A stretch of 40,339 bases of DNA from NCBI RefSeq assembly GCF_016744255.1, contig NZ_JADGES010000022.1, forward strand, positions 1 to 40,339, written 5' to 3'. Each line of letters starts with the position of its first letter. Position 1 is the first letter of the stretch. The notes under the pieces were generated by a model. It made no database searches and had not been told where the DNA came from. It worked only from the letters and a program-made list of their open reading frames with translations. This document shows positions 7,272-26,728 of this stretch, piece after piece. Source of the DNA: Maribacter sp. (lineage in GTDB: Bacteria > Bacteroidota > Bacteroidia > Flavobacteriales > Flavobacteriaceae). Made by a program: the position numbers and the translations under genes.

Positions 7272-9524
7272 CTACCATTCAAAATTCCAGATAGGTGTCT
7301 CGGCTTTTAAATGTTCCACAAAATAATTCCATCTTTTCTTCATGAAATAATTTCTGTGTTTTCCACCATAAATGTGTCTTTGACTGGGCAATATCAGGAG
7401 GTCAAATTCTTTGTCCTCTTTAATCAGCGCCTCGACCAATTTAAATGTGGCCGAGGGGTTTACATTATCATCCATACCTCCATGGACCAACAACAATTTG
7501 CCCTTTAAGTTTTTGGCGTTTGTAATGTTCGATACTTTGTGGTAGGTAGAATCTACAGGCCAACCCTGATACATTTCTGGCCACCAAGCTTTTTCCATTC
7601 TAAAATCATGATCTGCTGAACTTGCTACTCCAACCTTATACACATCTGGAAATGCTAACATTGCCCTTCCAGTATCAAAACCTCCGGCGGAATGCCCAAA
7701 AATACCAACCTTATCAGTATTTATCCACGAGTATTTTGCCCCTAAATGTTTGATGGCCAAAACATGGTCTTCTAAATTATTCCCCATATTCTTATAAGAG
7801 TGATTATGGAATTCCTTTGACCGTTTTGATGTTCCCAAACCATCAATCACCATAACGATAAAACCGAGTTCGGCCAATGCTTGATTACGAAATGCCCCAG
7901 AAAATCTTTCAGGAAACATGTGTGTGTGTGGTCCAGTATACGTATGATCGATCAATGGATACGACATTGAAGAATCAAAATTTGTTGGCTTCCAAATGGC
8001 TCCATAAATAGTAGTTTTACCATCTTTGGCGGTAAGTTCAAAAACTTCGGGGGATCGCCACCCTTCGGCAACTACTCTGGATATGTCCGCTTCTGTAATT
8101 TGTTTTATGATTTGCCCCGACCTTGCCTTTCGCAAAACAGTTTTTGTGGGCGTATTTATAGTAGAATAACTATCCACAAAATGTTTTCCATCAGCGGAGA
8201 ACGAAATATCATGGTTCATCAATTCAGGAGTCAACAGAGTAACCTTCCCTTGAAAATTTGCCTTATATAATTGGCTGTGGTATGGATTGTTCCCTTGTTC
8301 CTTTCCATTGGCAATGAAATAAATGGTTTCATTTTTCTCATCGATATATTCAATTCTGGATATGTAATAATTTCCACCGGTAAGAGAGGTTGTTTTATTG
8401 GTACGTATATCAAGAAGGTATAATTGACGCCAACCGTTTCTTTCAGAGAGAAATGCAATTTTTTGCTTTTCTTTCAAGTACCTGTATTCAAAATTGTCAA
8501 TGTTTGTACTGCTGGTTTCAGTCACTAATATTTGTTCCAAATTAGTGTTTAAATTTATACGCTTTAAGTACCCTTTTTTAAACCCACGCTCCAAGTAATA
8601 AGCTAGGGCGACTCCTGGCTCTTCGGTCCATTCCACGGAAACTGAATTTATATGAGTGCCTCTGGGCAGATTGGTTCTCACCTCACTTTTGCTTTCTACA
8701 TTGAAAAATACTGGCTTTACATGGACCATTGTGGTATCTCCGGGGGAACCTCTATAATAGGACAGTAATTTTGGGCGAAATAATGAATCGATACTATAAT
8801 CGAGCAAATACATTTTTTCTGCATGTTGCAAATCGACAACGTTTGTCGATATCCATTTGGAATCTTTGGACCAGTTTACATTAAAATGTTCAGGACGATT
8901 TCCATTTTCTCCTTCCATTTTCTCATACCAGCCATACAATGACCCATATTCATAATTTTTTCTTCCATCAAAACTCAATTGATATTTTTGTTCAGTTGTG
9001 GTTGACTTAATAAATAGATTATAGTCTTCTGCGTAAGCAATCCATTTTCCATCAAGCGATTTAGATTCAAAACGATTTTCCTCTTCCTCCTTTTCTTCAC
9101 TGATTCTAAGCTTGTAGGTTAACAAATCTAAAACATATGATTGGCCATCGTGTACAAATGAAAGTTGTCCTTCTTTAGGCTTCTCAATATCATAAAGCAA
9201 TAACTCATTTGCTTTTGTTTCTTTTTGGGAGAATTCATTTATGGCATTGGCGACTCTGTAATGATCAAATAAAAATTTTATACGGTATGTCTTGATATCC
9301 ATTGTTTTATAATAGATACCTTTCTCACTATGATCAATGAACCAGAACCCTGTATTATCCTTATGCCAATTTATCTGGGTATCAAGATTAAAAACCTTCT
9401 TGTTATTGTAGTTGGCATACAGATAGTCCACAGCTCTTTCGTAATCATTTGTGGTGATATCCTGACCCTTAATCGAATCTATTGATAATGCCATTAGGGT
9501 AATTAAAATGTATAAATGCTTCAT
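7272..9524 (-). CDS. Dipeptidyl-peptidase IV-like serine peptidase (S9 family)
   Basis: 750 residues, a typical length for S9 dipeptidyl peptidases. Signal peptide at 1-20, then a beta-propeller region to about 490 (for example FLSERNGWRQLYLLD and GKHFVDSYSTINTPT) and an alpha/beta hydrolase domain at 495-745. The catalytic triad is readable: Ser612 in GHSAGG, Asp685 in HGGMDDNVNP and His717 in SQRHIYGG. Enzymes of this family remove N-terminal dipeptides, usually after Pro or Ala, from peptides; this one is exported to the periplasm or cell surface. It opens the second operon of the locus, 281 bases and one terminator beyond the SusC/SusD operon, and probably trims peptides made by the neighbouring metalloprotease. 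Confidence 0.9.
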   Translation of the reverse strand: MKHLYILITLMALSIDSIKGQDITTNDYERAVDYLYANYNNKKVFNLDTQINWHKDNTGFWFIDHSEKGIYYKTMDIKTYRIKFLFDHYRVANAINEFSQKETKANELLLYDIEKPKEGQLSFVHDGQSYVLDLLTYKLRISEEKEEEENRFESKSLDGKWIAYAEDYNLFIKSTTTEQKYQLSFDGRKNYEYGSLYGWYEKMEGENGNRPEHFNVNWSKDSKWISTNVVDLQHAEKMYLLDYSIDSLFRPKLLSYYRGSPGDTTMVHVKPVFFNVESKSEVRTNLPRGTHINSVSVEWTEEPGVALAYYLERGFKKGYLKRINLNTNLEQILVTETSSTNIDNFEYRYLKEKQKIAFLSERNGWRQLYLLDIRTNKTTSLTGGNYYISRIEYIDEKNETIYFIANGKEQGNNPYHSQLYKANFQGKVTLLTPELMNHDISFSADGKHFVDSYSTINTPTKTVLRKARSGQIIKQITEADISRVVAEGWRSPEVFELTAKDGKTTIYGAIWKPTNFDSSMSYPLIDHTYTGPHTHMFPERFSGAFRNQALAELGFIVMVIDGLGTSKRSKEFHNHSYKNMGNNLEDHVLAIKHLGAKYSWINTDKVGIFGHSAGGFDTGRAMLAFPDVYKVGVASSADHDFRMEKAWWPEMYQGWPVDSTYHKVSNITNAKNLKGKLLLVHGGMDDNVNPSATFKLVEALIKEDKEFDLLILPSQRHIYGGKHRNYFMKKRWNYFVEHLKAETPIWNFEW

Positions 9525-20916: not shown

Positions 20917-21912
20917 CTATCTAAGAAATTCAAAATCTCCAAATTTTTCTAATACGTCGTTAAAAGCAGCAAACACAGAGGCTGAATCATCGCTAGTAAC
21001 CATTTTCATGCGATGTTCTTTAAAATCTGGAATCCCTTTAAAATAATTGGTATAGTGCCTTCTAGTTTCAAATACACCTAATTTTTCCCCTTTCCAATCA
21101 ATCGCCATTTCTAAATGTCTACGTGCTGCAGTAACACGTTCTTCCATGGTTGGTGGTGCCAAATATGTTCCTGTTTCCATAAAATGCTTTACTTCCTTAA
21201 AAAACCAAGGATAACCAATACTCGCACGCCCAATCATTGCACCATCTAAACCATATTCATCGCGCATTTTTACGGCTGCTTCTGGTGTATTTACATCCCC
21301 ATTACCAAAAACAGGAATATGCATTCTCTGGTTGTTTTTTACCGCTGCAATTTGTGTCCAATCAGCATCGCCCTTATACATTTGTACTCTTGTTCTACCA
21401 TGAATTGCAATTGCTGCACAGCCTACATCTTGCAAACGCTCTGCAACCTCTACAATTTTTATAGAATCGGTATCCCATCCTAGCCTTGTCTTCACTGTAA
21501 TGGGTAGTTTGGTATGCTCTACCATGGCTTTAGTTAAAGAGACCATTAAATCTATATCTTTTAAAATACCAGCACCAGCACCTTTACTAACCACCTTTTT
21601 TACAGGACAACCAAAGTTAATGTCTATAATATCTGGACCCGATTTTTCTACAATCTCCACAGAACGAAGCATGGAATCTAAGTTGGCTCCAAAAATCTGA
21701 ATTCCGACTGGGCGTTCCTTCTCATAAATATCTAACTTCATTACACTTTTTGCAGCATCGCGAATTAATCCTTCCGAGGAAATAAACTCCGTATATACTA
21801 CATCTGCCCCTTGTTCTTTACATAACGTACGGAAAGGTGGATCACTAACATCTTCCATAGGTGCTAGTAATAAAGGGAAATCTGGTAATTGTATGTCTCC
21901 AATTTTTGGCAT
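20917..21912 (-). CDS. dusB: tRNA-dihydrouridine synthase B
   Basis: 331 residues, TIM-barrel flavoenzyme reducing uridine to dihydrouridine in the tRNA D-loop using FMN and NADPH. LLLAPMEDVSDPPFR at the start, catalytic Cys102 in NFGCPVKKVVSKGAGAGIL, KTRLGWD with Lys141, IHGRTR with His171, and GNGDV and GAMIGRASIGYPWFF near the FMN phosphate site are all as in DusB. The C-terminal helical domain carries RRHYTNYFKGIPDFK. It is divergent from the Lgt-like operon, with only 61 bases between starts. Confidence 0.96.
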   Translation of the reverse strand: MPKIGDIQLPDFPLLLAPMEDVSDPPFRTLCKEQGADVVYTEFISSEGLIRDAAKSVMKLDIYEKERPVGIQIFGANLDSMLRSVEIVEKSGPDIIDINFGCPVKKVVSKGAGAGILKDIDLMVSLTKAMVEHTKLPITVKTRLGWDTDSIKIVEVAERLQDVGCAAIAIHGRTRVQMYKGDADWTQIAAVKNNQRMHIPVFGNGDVNTPEAAVKMRDEYGLDGAMIGRASIGYPWFFKEVKHFMETGTYLAPPTMEERVTAARRHLEMAIDWKGEKLGVFETRRHYTNYFKGIPDFKEHRMKMVTSDDSASVFAAFNDVLEKFGDFEFLR

Positions 21913-21973: not shown

Positions 21974-22747
21974 ATGTTTTTATCCTTTTCTATTCCGTAC
22001 GAGCCCATTCTATATGGAATAAAGATTAATATGCACCTTGTGTTGGAGTATTTAGCCTTTTTTATTGGGTTTCAATATTATCGTTTTTTACGAAAAAAAA
22101 GTGCCGATTTAATATCTTCTACCAATCGCTTGTCAATAATTATTGGAGCCATATTTGGTGCTTTATTTTTATCTAGGTTTGTCGCATTTTTTGAAAACCC
22201 TGTATTACATTATAACCAAGGTTGGCTTTCTATTCTTAATAACAAAACCATAATGGGTGGTTTATTCGGTGGCCTTTTAGGAGTAGAGCTCGTAAAAAAA
22301 AGAATTGGAGTAAAAACATCCTCAGGGGATCTTTTTACTTTACCTATAATCCTTGGTCTTATAATTGGCCGTTTAGGCTGTTTCTTAGCGGGGACCAATG
22401 AATTTACCTATGGTATTGTAACCAACAGTTTTCTTGGTATGTCTTTAGGAGATGAATACCTTAGGCACCCTATTGCCCTTTATGAAATTGTCTTCCTTGT
22501 CTTTCTTTTTGCCCGTATTAAATATCTTAGAAAAAGAAAGAGTGCTTTGGAGAATGGAATGCTTTTTAAAATTTTTATGATTGCCTATTTTTCTTTTAGA
22601 TTCTCTATAGAATTCCTAAAACCAAATCCGTTTCTATTTTTAGAGCTTAGCACTATTCAGTTTTTATGCCTAATTTGTCTTTGCTATTACTATAAAACCA
22701 TATTAAAAGGAATATCATATGCCTACAAGAAATTACACCTATTATGA
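21974..22747 (+). CDS. Lgt-like (prolipoprotein diacylglyceryl transferase family) membrane protein lacking the HGG histidine
   Basis: 257 residues, polytopic. Start at ATG 21974 rather than an upstream ATG at 21893, which would overlap dusB. The Lgt signature is recognisable: IIGRLGCFLAGTNEFTYG (131-147; Arg133 matches the essential Arg of the GR motif), RHPIALYE (164-171) and FRFSIEFLKPN (208-218; Arg209 and Glu213 match the Lgt RxxxE). The position of the conserved HGG motif reads MGG (94-96), so a histidine important in E. coli Lgt (His103) is missing. True Lgt transfers diacylglycerol from phosphatidylglycerol to prolipoprotein; this paralogue may use a different acceptor or lipid. It overlaps the next gene, a radical SAM enzyme, by 29 bases. 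Confidence 0.82.
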   Translation: MFLSFSIPYEPILYGIKINMHLVLEYLAFFIGFQYYRFLRKKSADLISSTNRLSIIIGAIFGALFLSRFVAFFENPVLHYNQGWLSILNNKTIMGGLFGGLLGVELVKKRIGVKTSSGDLFTLPIILGLIIGRLGCFLAGTNEFTYGIVTNSFLGMSLGDEYLRHPIALYEIVFLVFLFARIKYLRKRKSALENGMLFKIFMIAYFSFRFSIEFLKPNPFLFLELSTIQFLCLICLCYYYKTILKGISYAYKKLHLL

Positions 22748-24110
22748 TTTTACATTAAGCCTTTGCCCTGAATGTTTAAGAAGGGTCGATGCTAAAATTG
22801 TTTTTGAAAATGATAAGGTATACATGCTTAAGAATTGCAAGGAGCATGGTAACTCTAAGGTTTTAATAGCAGATGATATAGAGTACTATAAAAACATAAG
22901 GAACTATAACAAGGCTTCTGAATACCCAAATACTTTTAATACAGAAACGCATTATGGCTGTCCTTACGATTGTGGCCTTTGCCCCGATCATGAGCAACAT
23001 TCTTGTCTTACCGTAATAGAGCTTACCGATCGCTGTAATTTAACCTGCCCTACTTGTTATGCATCTTCTTCTCCTAGTTATGGTAGGCATAGAACTTTAG
23101 AAGAAGTTAAAAAAATGCTCGATGTTATTGTAAAAAATGAAGGAGAGCCAGATGTAGTGCAACTCAGTGGTGGTGAACCTACTATACACCCTCATTTTTT
23201 TGAAATTTTAGATTATGCTAAAACCCTACCTATTCGGCATTTAATGCTCAATACTAACGGAATTAAAATAGCCAAAGATTATGCCTTTGCACAGCGCTTA
23301 GCAACCTATACTCCAGATTTTGAAATCTATCTTCAGTTCGATTCTTTGGATAATAACGTTTTACAAACTCTACGTGGTGCAGATTTAGCCGAAACCAGGT
23401 TAAAAGCATTAGAGCACTTAAATAAATTAAACCTATCTACAACCCTTGTGGTTACCTTACAAAAGGGGCTTAACGACCATGAAATGGGTAAAACCATTGA
23501 TTTTGCTTTAAAACAAAAATGTGTTCGCGGAGTTACCTTTCAGCCCACACAAATTGCTGGTAGACTAGATAATTTCGAGGTAGACGAAAACAGAATAACA
23601 CTCACCGAAGTACGTAGAAAAATATTGGAGCAATCCCCTATTTTTGAGCCAGACGATTTAATCCCTGTACCTTGTAACCCAGATGCTTTGGTGATGGCTT
23701 ATGCCCTAAAAGTAGGAGATGTAGTAAGTCCGTTAACGCGCTACATTAATCCAGAGGATTTATTAAATGAAGGAAAGAATACCATAATTTATGAGCAAGA
23801 CCCTGAATTACATGGTAAAATGATAGATCTCTTTAGTACTGGTAACTCTGTAGAAAAAGCTTCTGAAAATCTAAAAAGTATACTATGTTGCTTGCCCGAA
23901 ATTGATGCTCCTAACTTAGGGTATGATAACCTCTTTAGAATTATAATTATGCAGTTTATCGATGCTCATAATTTTGATGTTAGAGCCATTAAAAAATCTT
24001 GTGTACATATTGTAAATAAGGACTATAAAATTATTCCTTTTGAAACTATGAATCTCTTTTATAGAGATGATAAATTAGAACGTTTAAAAGAACTACAAAA
24101 CGAAATATGA
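22719..24110 (+). CDS. Radical SAM enzyme of the tetraether-lipid-synthase (Tes/MJ0619)-like family
   Basis: 463 residues, soluble. An N-terminal small metal site (Cys16, Cys19 in LCPEC, Cys40 in NCKEHG) is followed by the Tes-type cysteine cluster GCPYDCGLCPDHEQHSC (Cys81, Cys85, Cys88, Cys96), the radical SAM motif TDRCNLTCPTC (Cys106, Cys110, Cys113), and GGEPT at 151-155. The C-terminal part has SILCCLPEID (Cys390, Cys391), FDVRAIKKSCVHI (Cys428) and IIPFETMNLFYRD, matching the tail of the same family. Archaeal Tes joins two lipid tails through unactivated carbons; the bacterial relatives are largely uncharacterised. The start overlaps the Lgt-like gene and the stop overlaps the next gene (ATGA), so the three are one operon. 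Carbon-carbon coupling or alkylation of a lipid is a reasonable guess, not shown. Confidence 0.85.
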   Translation: MPTRNYTYYDFTLSLCPECLRRVDAKIVFENDKVYMLKNCKEHGNSKVLIADDIEYYKNIRNYNKASEYPNTFNTETHYGCPYDCGLCPDHEQHSCLTVIELTDRCNLTCPTCYASSSPSYGRHRTLEEVKKMLDVIVKNEGEPDVVQLSGGEPTIHPHFFEILDYAKTLPIRHLMLNTNGIKIAKDYAFAQRLATYTPDFEIYLQFDSLDNNVLQTLRGADLAETRLKALEHLNKLNLSTTLVVTLQKGLNDHEMGKTIDFALKQKCVRGVTFQPTQIAGRLDNFEVDENRITLTEVRRKILEQSPIFEPDDLIPVPCNPDALVMAYALKVGDVVSPLTRYINPEDLLNEGKNTIIYEQDPELHGKMIDLFSTGNSVEKASENLKSILCCLPEIDAPNLGYDNLFRIIIMQFIDAHNFDVRAIKKSCVHIVNKDYKIIPFETMNLFYRDDKLERLKELQNEI

Positions 24111-24325
24111 TGAATATAATTTTCCCTTTAGAAGTTGGAAACCTGGATGGCCTAGTTACGTTTCTTTTTGCCATTATGTTTGGCCCAGCAATTGTACTTA
24201 TAATAATAGGTCTTATTTTAAGAGGCAAAGAAAAACCAAAAGCAGGTAAGGTACTTTTTATATTAGCAGGTGTCTATTTATTAGTTAGTTTAGGCGTTTG
24301 TGGAGGTTTAATGGGTGCGTTTTAA
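24107..24325 (+). CDS. Small two-helix membrane protein of the Lgt-like/radical SAM operon
   Basis: 72 residues, unknown family. Two hydrophobic helices at about 14-38 (TFLFAIMFGPAIVLIIIGLI) and 48-70 (VLFILAGVYLLVSLGVCGGL) joined by a basic loop (RGKEKPKAGK). It starts inside the stop of the radical SAM gene (ATGA, 4-base overlap), so it is translationally coupled. It could anchor or assist the soluble radical SAM protein at the membrane. It ends 3 bases from the convergent outer-membrane protein gene. Confidence 0.7.
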   Translation: MMNIIFPLEVGNLDGLVTFLFAIMFGPAIVLIIIGLILRGKEKPKAGKVLFILAGVYLLVSLGVCGGLMGAF

Positions 24326-24328
24326 GAA

Positions 24329-26728
24329 TTATATTCTTCGGCGTTCCGCATTATGCTTCGACTTTTTATTGTTTTTTATCTTTGAATTTCCAAACTTATA
24401 CCTAAATCCCAAACTAAAAAGGCGTGTTTCCCTTCTTGTGTAGGTCGAGTTATTTTGATCGCCATATACTCTAGATGCAAAACGTGCATTGTCCCTAAAA
24501 ACATCAGACATACCTAAAGAAATACTCGCTTTTTTATTCCACAATGTTTTTCGTATTGCTATACTTAAATTACTGTAAGCTTCCGAACTAGCATTACCAT
24601 AAATTGTAGGAGCATAATACACATAATTTACATCTACCATTAAGCTCTTATTATCTAATAATGCAAAACTATTTCTTGTTCTAAATAACCAAGACCAGAT
24701 ATCTCTTGTTAATAAATCGCCAGAACTAAAATCTACAAATTCATGCTCTTTATTTGAAATAGATAGTAAAATATAATTATCCCAATAATTAGTTACCTTT
24801 TTATTAAAAGAAAAATCTACTCCATAAAACGTATTTCTATCAATGTTATAACTAACATACCTTAATAAATTAGAGGTATTATCTTGAAAAACTTGTTCGC
24901 TAAAATAATTTTTCTCTACCATATAAAAGACCTCTACATTGTATGCCTTTTTTAAAGTATATTCTAAGGCTATATAGTTTCTAGTGGTTGGCAATAAGTT
25001 GGGATTACCCTCTATCACAGAGTTATTACTTTCGAAATACTGGAAAGGGTTAATCTTATTATACCTAGGTCTTTTAATTCTTCTAAAATAATAGAACCTT
25101 AAATTATGATCTTTACTTGGAACATAATTCAAAGAAAAGGAAGGAAATAACTCTAAATAGCTCCTCTTTGTTTTACTGGGGTTAGTATCTAAATCTCCAA
25201 GTGTTTCGGTATACTCTAATCGTAATCCAGTGTTTAATTTAAAATTCTCCCAGCTAGAGTTAAAACTAGTATACCCCGCATAAATATCTTCATCATACAG
25301 AAATACCCCTGCTTCTGTTGGGTTTATCCCAGGTTGGTTACGATCAAAACCTTCTTGTTTTATAGTACTCTTAGAATATATTCCCGCAAAACGAACCCCG
25401 GCTTCAAATCTACTAGCTTTACCAAAAGGGGTTATATAATCTAATTGAGCATTATACAGGTTTATCTTCTGATTAGAATCTGTCGTAAAATTATTAGTTC
25501 CCGTAGATTCTCCTAAATCATTAAAAAAAGTAGTATTTAAATCTTGTCCAATTTTTGCATCGTAAAAAGTATAGTGTGATCCAAAGGATATTTCTGCTCC
25601 TTTCTTATTTAGCTTCCTAACCCAATCTACATAATATGCAGTATTAAAATAATCTCTATCACTAAAAATAAGTGATTTAAAGCTAGAATCTAAGGCATCA
25701 TCTGTATAATTAACATCTGTATAAGTATCTTTTAGATTACTATATTTTGGTGTAAGAGCATTAAGACTAGACAAACTAATCGTATTTTTTTTGTTTATAT
25801 AATAATCAAAAAACAGGCTTAAATTATGTTTATTCTGTTTGGTCGTAGAGTTTTGGTTGGCTGTCCAATCGGAACTTGGGCTACCTATGTAATTTGTTTT
25901 ATCTGTAAACCTAGTAATATTTTTATTTCGACTAAAACTATAGTTTACAGAAAAATCAGTTTTTTTTCCCTTAAAATAGTGATCCGTACCCAAGGTATGC
26001 TTTGCAAAAACACCCTGTTTGTATGTATTATAAAGAGATCCATTATAACCCGATGCTAAATTTTTGCGCATTACAATATTAATGAGCATTCCTCCTTCTG
26101 CACTATATTTTAATGGTGGGTTGGTAATTACCTCAATAGATTCTACATTACTAGCACTAGTTCCAGAAAGTAAATTATATAAATCCTCAGTGGGTAGATT
26201 AACCTTTTTATTATTAATCATAACCCCGATATTATCTTGCCCCTTAATTTGTAGTTTATCTCCTGAGATAAGAACAGAAGGAGTCCTTTTTAAAACATCC
26301 CAAATATCGGAATCTGCCAAAGCAGTATTGGCAATATTAAACACCAGACGGTCTGCTTTTCTTTCTAACCTAGGTTTTTGTAGTGTAACCACAACCTCAT
26401 CTAAGTTTTGCTCAGATAAGTTTATTAGTATAGAACTTATTGTAATGTCTCCATTGATTTCTACAGAAATAGATTTAGAGGTGTTTCCTATATAACTAGC
26501 CTCTACATAATAACTGCCTTTTGCTAGTTTATTCAGCTTATAACTACCATCTTCTTCTGTAGAAGTTCCACGTAATAAAACAGAGTCTAAAGATTTAATA
26601 ACCACTGTTGCATAAGAAATAGGGTTTTTATTACTATCTAAAACAATACCAGACAAAGAATAATCTTGAGCAAATGATATCTTAAGAAAAGAAAAGAAAA
26701 GAAAAAAAGTAAGGTATAATCTTATCAT
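24329..26728 (-). CDS. Outer-membrane beta-barrel protein with carboxypeptidase-D-like domain (TonB-receptor-like)
   Basis: 799 residues. Signal peptide 1-20, then a carboxypeptidase-D regulatory-like domain (about 22-110: SGIVLDSNKNPISYATVVIK), a plug-like region (about 115-220: LDEVVVTLQKPRLERKADRL, LKRTPSVLISGDKLQIKGQD) and an OMP_b-brl_3-type barrel to the C-terminus, ending in a barrel strand (ETRLFSLGFRYKFGN) and a lysine-rich tail. The family is common in Flavobacteriia, and its substrates are mostly unknown. It is a single gene converging on the radical SAM operon and divergent from lepA. Confidence 0.88.
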   Translation of the reverse strand: MIRLYLTFFLFFSFLKISFAQDYSLSGIVLDSNKNPISYATVVIKSLDSVLLRGTSTEEDGSYKLNKLAKGSYYVEASYIGNTSKSISVEINGDITISSILINLSEQNLDEVVVTLQKPRLERKADRLVFNIANTALADSDIWDVLKRTPSVLISGDKLQIKGQDNIGVMINNKKVNLPTEDLYNLLSGTSASNVESIEVITNPPLKYSAEGGMLINIVMRKNLASGYNGSLYNTYKQGVFAKHTLGTDHYFKGKKTDFSVNYSFSRNKNITRFTDKTNYIGSPSSDWTANQNSTTKQNKHNLSLFFDYYINKKNTISLSSLNALTPKYSNLKDTYTDVNYTDDALDSSFKSLIFSDRDYFNTAYYVDWVRKLNKKGAEISFGSHYTFYDAKIGQDLNTTFFNDLGESTGTNNFTTDSNQKINLYNAQLDYITPFGKASRFEAGVRFAGIYSKSTIKQEGFDRNQPGINPTEAGVFLYDEDIYAGYTSFNSSWENFKLNTGLRLEYTETLGDLDTNPSKTKRSYLELFPSFSLNYVPSKDHNLRFYYFRRIKRPRYNKINPFQYFESNNSVIEGNPNLLPTTRNYIALEYTLKKAYNVEVFYMVEKNYFSEQVFQDNTSNLLRYVSYNIDRNTFYGVDFSFNKKVTNYWDNYILLSISNKEHEFVDFSSGDLLTRDIWSWLFRTRNSFALLDNKSLMVDVNYVYYAPTIYGNASSEAYSNLSIAIRKTLWNKKASISLGMSDVFRDNARFASRVYGDQNNSTYTRRETRLFSLGFRYKFGNSKIKNNKKSKHNAERRRI

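Follow-up and report, generated by a model that had tools for sequence, protein, structure and literature searches.

The window analysed here, a stretch of 40,339 nucleotides from a Maribacter species (contig NZ_JADGES010000022.1), contains three overlapping genes that encode a relative of the lipoprotein diacylglyceryl transferase Lgt, a radical S-adenosylmethionine (SAM) enzyme related to the lipid enzymes Tes and GDGT-MAS, and a small membrane protein. The three products almost certainly work jointly, and we tentatively read them as a dedicated protein-lipidation system, in which the small protein would be the lipid acceptor and the radical-SAM enzyme would tailor the lipid. Taken by its parts, this reading has the tail cysteine of the small protein as the probable acceptor and, by analogy with Tes, lipid chains as the likelier substrate of the radical-SAM enzyme.

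21974..22747, + strand: Lgt-like transferase gene, group A of the system, 257 residues
22719..24110, + strand: radical-SAM gene, sister family of Tes and GDGT-MAS, 463 residues
24107..24325, + strand: gene of a small two-helix membrane protein, the proposed lipid acceptor, 72 residues

Among the readings weighed below, lipidation is the best supported, as it draws on a cysteine predicted to be accessible to Lgt, a kept donor site, acceptors that vary except in the setting of their cysteine, and a radical-SAM enzyme modelled in a lipid-acting fold. Open reading frame (ORF) coordinates confirm what the first-pass annotation of this DNA had stated of the arrangement, namely that the Lgt-like and radical-SAM genes overlap by 29 bases and the radical-SAM and small-protein genes by 4, all on the plus strand. 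An alternative in-frame ATG for the Lgt-like ORF lies at 21893, and the start was taken as 21974 because homologues start near that position.

Conservation of the gene set

In 199 genomes of the window's family, matches to the radical-SAM protein occur in 25, 24 of them about full length and one a short remnant (genome G072), and strong matches to the Lgt-like protein (at least 247 bits, the next score being 40 bits) occur in exactly the same 24. The small-protein profile, A2, matches in 26 genomes, 23 of which have both enzymes; the other three are the remnant genomes G072 and G152, together with G003, an 80%-complete genome without either enzyme. In G113, the 24th genome with both enzymes, the pair is adjoined by a small protein that has diverged and has a cysteine in its tail, and nine genomes carry two or three copies of the small protein, all of them beside the radical-SAM gene by coordinates. 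Since these presence patterns coincide, the three genes have mostly been gained and lost jointly in the family.

The linkage extends well beyond the family. A phylum-level search found radical-SAM relatives in 34 of 395 genomes at an E-value of 1e-20, three of them only some 30-33% alike; at the new loci from this search an Lgt-like gene lies nearby in 24 of 26 (two of these cut by the locus edge), and none was found at L062 and L071, wider regions included. A collection scan with an 11-sequence alignment covered the best 80 of at least 568 relatives, ranked by their likeness to a group-B query, and 70 of these 80 loci have the Lgt-like gene, on the same strand as the radical-SAM gene in all 69 that were measured. 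Six of the ten loci without it (L096, L104, L114, L127, L165 and L172) stop within about 0.4 kilobases (kb) of the radical-SAM gene on the expected side, and the other four (L116, L148, L153 and L173) have no Lgt-like gene despite more sequence. The gene lies upstream in 48 loci, overlapping the radical-SAM gene in 28 and with 30 bases or fewer between them in 37, as counted with mechanically assigned start codons, and 0.6-2.9 kb downstream in 21.

By record titles, the related loci carry 15 phylum-level labels (Bacteroidota, Bacillota, Chlorobiota, Ignavibacteriota, Acidobacteriota, Elusimicrobiota, Omnitrophota, Actinomycetota, Thermodesulfobacteriota, Pseudomonadota, Chloroflexota, Kiritimatiellota, Moraniibacteriota, Minisyncoccota and Woesearchaeota), many of which stand for single binned genomes in which a contig is possibly misplaced. 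The first-pass annotation had proposed that the products act together, and had pointed to co-occurrence of their genes as a way to check it; the retention of the pair in 70 of 80 loci, the shared presence pattern in the 199 family genomes, and a synteny conserved across family genomes and phyla all bear it out.

The radical-SAM tree divides into groups A, B and Ktedonobacterales, and so does the Lgt tree. The small gene of group A mostly lies directly 3' of the radical-SAM gene, and the typical order in group B, the downstream type, is radical SAM, ICMT-type methyltransferase, DUF4395 membrane protein, Lgt-like gene and small protein, the two middle families being named by Pfam at one locus, L099. 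There, positions 7377-8472, between the radical-SAM and Lgt-like genes, hold a DUF4395 membrane protein with a cysteine-rich tail and the ICMT-type methyltransferase. The ICMT-type gene suggests a further methylation in group B. The gene set is also found on a Persicobacter megaplasmid.

Small membrane proteins with a tail cysteine

The small neighbours in other lineages are short membrane proteins of unalike sequence, sometimes in tandem (53-204 residues, median 102, n=76), and they follow one plan, in which a basic side gives way to some 20 uncharged residues (median; range 3-53), a cysteine and then a tail of 3-22 residues. The third gene is thus a shared design, not one family, and in the window this design takes the following form.

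24221..24250, + strand: basic loop RGKEKPKAGK before the last helix, expected to lie inside
24299..24301, + strand: codon of Cys65, the proposed lipid attachment site, in the context SLGVC-GG; motif in the last helix

Such cysteine-tail proteins occur in 62 of the 80 loci, with two or more in nine (at one of these, L133, the two ORFs overlap in different frames) and five in one. Among the 67 loci with a small hydrophobic downstream ORF (13 have none by the rule), the first such ORF shows the pattern in 59. Membrane ORFs taken from these loci as controls show it in 7 of 184 cases, and those of 80-210 residues in 4 of 48. Five of the eight misses have a cysteine-tail ORF nearby that the rule passed over (L103, L105, L120, L136 and L147), and three have none nearby (L114, L138 and L163). 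In 65 of the 76 proteins the loop that precedes the last helix carries a net positive charge, the tails of 58 are free of K and R, and position -2 from the cysteine is G, A or S in 69, with small or branched residues at -1. In the window's family the cysteine near the end of helix 2 is kept in all 23 homologues, which were picked by similarity; the tails behind it are hydrophobic and variable there, and all helices are conserved. Similarly, it is invariant in 19 aligned small proteins of the Bacillota group, though 17 of these were picked by the rule, so that only two are independent.

The 72-residue protein itself has no family match above cut-off in Pfam or NCBIfam, and neither have ten small proteins from other lineages in NCBIfam; several further ones, compared with both collections, gave a zinc ribbon in L119 as the sole match above cut-off. 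Membership in the NF058595 'lipo-invert' tails was considered and rejected (12.5 bits, cut-off 37), and in the 395 genomes of the phylum no protein exceeds that cut-off.

The first-pass annotation had supposed the third protein to be a membrane anchor. A plain anchor is disfavoured, since elsewhere its place is taken by small proteins that are unalike in sequence and share this cysteine design, and the tandem copies, the varied sequence and the near-constant tail cysteine make the protein look like an acceptor instead. A different role for the cysteine, in redox or metal chemistry, with the small proteins anchoring the radical-SAM enzyme or passing electrons to it and the Lgt-like enzyme having a separate, lipid-related task, seems quite improbable to us. 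It would suit the position of the small gene directly after the radical-SAM gene in most of group A, and the zinc ribbon that some small proteins carry (recognized by Pfam in L119), but a lone cysteine in a hydrophobic and presumably outward-facing spot is ill-suited to such chemistry, and 30 of the 76 proteins have no second cysteine.

Two features of these proteins may be recorded besides. A zinc-ribbon-like N-terminal stretch is present in the cysteine-tail proteins at L107 9243-9692 (recognized by eye) and L119 4501-5115 (recognized by Pfam), and 15 of the 76 end in His, many with N-F/L-x-x-H-like tails after the cysteine (L144, L148, L160, L166-L168 and similar).

The Lgt-like enzyme

The assignment of the first protein to the lipoprotein diacylglyceryl-transferase family, as originally annotated, holds, with a match to Pfam LGT (PF01790) of 2e-22 and 80.1 bits, above the cut-off of 24.9. 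Against the lgt equivalog model TIGR00544, however, the protein scores 35 bits, under the cut-off of 118.9, and no sequence in the PDB matches it at an E-value of 1 or better. Residues were counted, in E. coli Lgt numbering, over 73 Lgt-like proteins (69 from the scan loci and four family rows; L098, with a split frame, was left out of the count and of the Lgt tree). The positions that matter most are these.

22370..22372, + strand: codon of Arg133, equivalent of E. coli Arg143; Arg in 73/73
22379..22381, + strand: codon of Cys136, equivalent of Asn146; Cys in 71/73, Asn in 2/73
22253..22255, + strand: codon of Met94, at the position of E. coli His103; His in 0/73
22598..22612, + strand: codons of Arg209 to Glu213, equivalents of E. 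coli Arg239 and Glu243; Arg in 73/73, Glu in 42 and Asp in 31

Gly142, 145, 150 and 154 are likewise kept in all 73 proteins and Tyr235 in 72, and position 103 is taken by V in 55, M in seven, T in five, I in three and L in three. For E. coli Lgt, excerpts of PMC4728403 propose that Arg143 and Arg239 hold and activate the phosphatidylglycerol donor, and excerpts of the same paper and of PMC8689077 describe His103 as essential and placed at the peptide thiol, and Asn146 as needed too. What these enzymes share with Lgt is therefore the LGT domain and the set of Arg143, Arg239, Tyr235 and Glu/Asp243, whereas they differ in the loss of His103 and, nearly always, of Asn146. The simplest reading of these sequences is that the donor chemistry would be as in Lgt and the acceptor handled differently; less simply, an altogether different acceptor may be used.

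That the gene might be an ordinary second lgt, a spare copy for the usual lipoproteins whose neighbourhood arose by chance, is hardly credible. Its LGT match is above the Pfam cut-off, as such a copy would require, but the two lost residues, the low equivalog score and a linkage that holds across phyla all speak against it, and the window's genome has two other LGT genes that score higher (186 and 165 bits, as opposed to 79), so that the gene in the window is not that of the ordinary lipoprotein enzyme. Elsewhere in this genome, at L175 4576-5373 (contig G000:C77), lies an Lgt paralogue of GRFGCFNAGCCYG type, adjoining lipoprotein-looking genes; it was considered as part of a second set and rejected, as no radical-SAM gene is among the surrounding ORFs listed.

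The radical-SAM enzyme

The second protein matches Pfam Radical_SAM (4.6e-27), the zinc ribbon PF23545 (4.9e-20) and GDGT-MAS (7tol, E 2.2e-68). An AlphaFold model built from 35 sequences (mean predicted local distance difference test, pLDDT, 82; predicted template-modelling score, pTM, 0.86; residues 370-396 of low confidence) aligns over its full length to the GDGT-MAS structures 7tom and 7tol, with a template-modelling (TM) score of 0.81 and 30% identity to MJ0619 in the structural alignment, whilst the other 48 chains among the matches listed have TM scores of at most 0.40 by query length. Residue counts over an alignment of 35 relatives gave the following motifs.

22764..22847, + strand: rubredoxin-type motif C16-X2-C19-X20-C40-X2-H43; the three Cys in 35/35, His in 34/35
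22959..22991, + strand: N-terminal cluster motif C81-X3-C85-X2-C88, with H91; 35/35
23034..23057, + strand: SAM cluster motif C106-X3-C110-X2-C113; 35/35
23673..24002, + strand: candidate C-terminal cluster cysteines C319, C390, C391 and C428; C319 and C428 in 35/35, C390 and C391 in 30/35

The spacing of the rubredoxin, N-terminal cluster and SAM motifs is the same as stated for GDGT-MAS, in which, according to excerpts of PMC9433317, the N-terminal cluster is held by C73, C77, C80 and a His. The Tes-like cysteine layout that had been noticed at first thus stands in three places, the rubredoxin, N-terminal cluster and SAM motifs, and fails in the region of the C-terminal cluster, where three cysteines of MJ0619 are replaced by I, S and E and where C319, C390, C391 and C428 are candidate ligands. 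At the position of Met439, the labile methionine at the C-terminal cluster of Tes, Met411 aligns in the window protein, and Met is found in only 26 of the 35 relatives. The position of Tyr459 is occupied by Ile431, with Tyr absent among the residues of the 35 relatives; the same excerpts report this tyrosine as conserved in 1,000 archaeal homologues and as dispensable for activity.

Other evidence also places the enzyme beside Tes and not within it. With the NCBIfam Tes model (NF045702, cut-off 450) the window protein scores 291.2 bits, and three relatives, from Clostridium, Paenibacillus and Pontiellaceae, score 316.5, 296.5 and 233.4; with TrsS, a radical SAM (seleno)protein (NF045646, cut-off 490), it reaches 327.4 bits over most of its length, its best NCBIfam score, and the same relatives reach 359.4, 329.5 and 307.2, again under the cut-off. 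In a quick radical-SAM tree with several long branches, and with MJ0619 as no more than a partial row, 85 rows are separate from MJ0619, L077 and L079 with support of 100, and the closest named sequences to the window protein are from Flavobacterium (82% identity). Identity with true Tes or TrsS was rejected on these scores and, for Tes, on the separate clade. The enzyme thus appears, by its model, to have the Tes fold, yet it belongs to a sister clade of Tes, so that the early description of a Tes-related radical-SAM enzyme is upheld, though outside Tes by score, by clade and at the position of Tyr459. The same annotation had named placement in a clade with a known non-lipid substrate as damaging to its view, and the clade found is none such. 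The radical-SAM genes that group with MJ0619, at L077 6864-8321 and L079 7420-8895 in the same phylum, are possible true Tes homologues and have no Lgt-like gene among their listed neighbours. Two plasmid relatives at a greater distance, found in Halorarius and Mycolicibacterium and probably of the TrsS type, adjoin a methyltransferase gene, with no Lgt named in their incomplete gene tables.

The fold of this enzyme bears on two further explanations. In the first, which is near to that of the first-pass annotation, the radical-SAM enzyme would couple or alter acyl chains, the Lgt-like enzyme would act on a free lipid by remodelling its head group, and the small proteins would serve as unlipidated subunits or adapters. 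The Tes fold of the model agrees with this, as do the membrane-spanning lipids made by Tes (PMC9433317, in excerpt), and the loss of His103, the peptide-thiol residue, would be expected if no peptide thiol were used; the explanation leaves the common position of a cysteine in the last helix of unalike small proteins unaccounted for, and we consider it unlikely. The second, in which the radical-SAM enzyme would modify the small proteins themselves, as for ribosomally synthesized and post-translationally modified peptides (RiPPs), and the Lgt-like enzyme would add a lipid to give a lipidated peptide, perhaps cleaved near the cysteine, is distinctly unlikely. Small, variable and tandem-copied genes do adjoin the radical-SAM gene, and lipidated RiPPs made via the lipoprotein pathway are known (PMC12636315, in excerpt); however, the only full-length fold match among the chains listed is to a lipid enzyme, the Pfam scan of the window's radical-SAM protein shows no peptide-recognition domain, the neighbours read gave no sign of a protease or exporter, and in the window's family conservation extends to all helices, beyond the tail alone, with the part after the cysteine hydrophobic and variable. 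The RiPP-lipoprotein hybrids (DAG-RiPPs) of that paper, as far as its excerpts describe them, share small gene-encoded acceptors and a metalloenzyme with the present set, but they rely on the usual lipoprotein pathway and on a signal at the N-terminus, whereas the set in the window has a dedicated, linked Lgt-like gene.

Proposed mechanism

Returning to lipidation of the small protein, we infer a course of events whose order is itself part of the proposal. The small protein would insert such that the basic loop stays inside and the last helix points outward, leaving the tail cysteine on the outer side of the inner membrane; as this helix runs from the basic loop towards the cysteine, the latter should lie at the site of Lgt action. 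The Lgt-like enzyme would bind a donor of the phosphatidylglycerol type via its conserved arginines and transfer the glycerolipid to the tail cysteine as a thioether, with an altered thiol-handling site (no His103, and a cysteine at 146). From the inside, the radical-SAM enzyme would act on the donor lipid, abstracting hydrogen from its saturated acyl chains and coupling or otherwise modifying these, as its sister Tes does. The small protein would then end on a tailored lipid, perhaps chain-coupled or even membrane-spanning, a detail suggested by Tes alone.

Several observations weigh against this proposal. The outer position of the tail cysteine is deduced from charge bias alone, and the action of Tes on lipids does not prove the same for its sister clade. 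His103 is missing from all 73 Lgt-like proteins and Asn146 is present in two, and a strict lipobox is found in two and a relaxed one in five of the 76 small proteins. Cysteine-tail ORFs are absent, by the rule, from 18 of the 80 loci, some of which are truncated or failures of the rule and some neither. The rule, moreover, was drawn up after the first loci had been inspected, and it was therefore applied unchanged to 14 loci from unused genomes, none of them a near-copy (the closest is 93% alike to an earlier locus over the radical-SAM gene); 13 of these have an Lgt-like gene, 12 were eligible, and 10 of the 12 show the pattern, a result in favour of the proposal. In the genus mate G152, finally, a deletion (L177 8816-9211, corresponding to 22087-24035 in the window) took most of both enzyme genes and left end stubs, and yet the small ORF is intact, with 71 residues and 79% identity. 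Together with G003, this case argues mildly against the small protein being strictly dependent on the enzymes.

Comparison with known systems

Like the lipoproteins with a lipobox, the small proteins have a cysteine at the expected outer end of an outward helix behind a basic loop, but it lies in the C-terminal helix and not in the N-terminal one. A standard N-terminal lipobox was rejected on this ground for the window motif LGVC, as well as on the rarity of the strict consensus, which an excerpt of PMC8689077 gives as [LV][ASTVI][GAS]C.

Tes and GDGT-MAS (MJ0619) have in common with the window enzyme the full-length fold, the rubredoxin motif, the N-terminal cluster and the SAM motifs, and they differ from it in the C-terminal cysteines and at Tyr459, and in that enzymes of the window type are linked to an Lgt-like gene and small cysteine-tail proteins. 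C-terminal sorting, such as that of GlyGly-CTERM proteins with rhombosortase, also relies on a C-terminal membrane helix with a special motif. The small proteins have this in common with it and differ in the 58 of 76 tails without K or R; rhomboids or sortases were not noticed in the neighbourhoods read, in which no scan was aimed at them.

Word-specific searches of the open-licence literature in PubMed Central found no description of a set of Lgt-like, radical-SAM and small-protein genes, in agreement with the initial statement that no such described system was known; a description elsewhere is possible. No system with the same composition is known to us, and the chemistry of the set, if as proposed, would resemble that by which lipoproteins are lipidated, although the set stands outside their pathway.

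The consequences, should the proposal be true, would be twofold. Lipoprotein lipidation would have a parallel with its own transferase, C-terminal cysteine acceptors and a lipid-tailoring radical enzyme, under 15 phylum-level labels, and an unassigned branch of the Tes superfamily would gain a substrate class. In its boldest form, this would be a second, phylum-spanning prokaryotic protein lipidation, in which a relative of Lgt that lacks His103 attaches a glycerolipid, tailored by the radical-SAM enzyme and possibly chain-coupled or membrane-spanning, to a C-terminal outer cysteine of small multi-helix membrane proteins, so that a protein would be fastened to a lipid that perhaps spans the entire bilayer. 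We consider this generalization doubtful.

The branch also bears on published lists of bacterial Tes. Excerpts of PMC9433317 mention bacterial homologues in the same InterPro family, with no role assigned to them there. A survey (PMC8941075, in excerpt) counted bacterial proteins as 'Tes homologues' if they matched at E < 1e-50 with more than 20% identity, and proposed them as makers of the membrane-spanning lipids used as climate proxies, and bacterial matches were reported again, and treated as possible lipid makers, in PMC11868695 (in excerpt). Given the match to MJ0619 at E 2.2e-68 and 30% identity, the Lgt-linked branch may be among the survey's 'Tes homologues', and such lists should be used with this warning in mind.

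Neighbouring genes

In G072 (L091 6695-6967) the short radical-SAM remnant is followed by a trace of the small protein and then by LepA, which is also the gene before which the full set is placed in the window. An outer-membrane beta-barrel gene (OMP_b-brl_3, with a carboxypeptidase-regulatory-like domain) occupies 24329-26728 on the minus strand of the window, its end lying 4 bases past the small gene, and in the genus mate G152 a beta-barrel gene stands at the same position beside the small gene.

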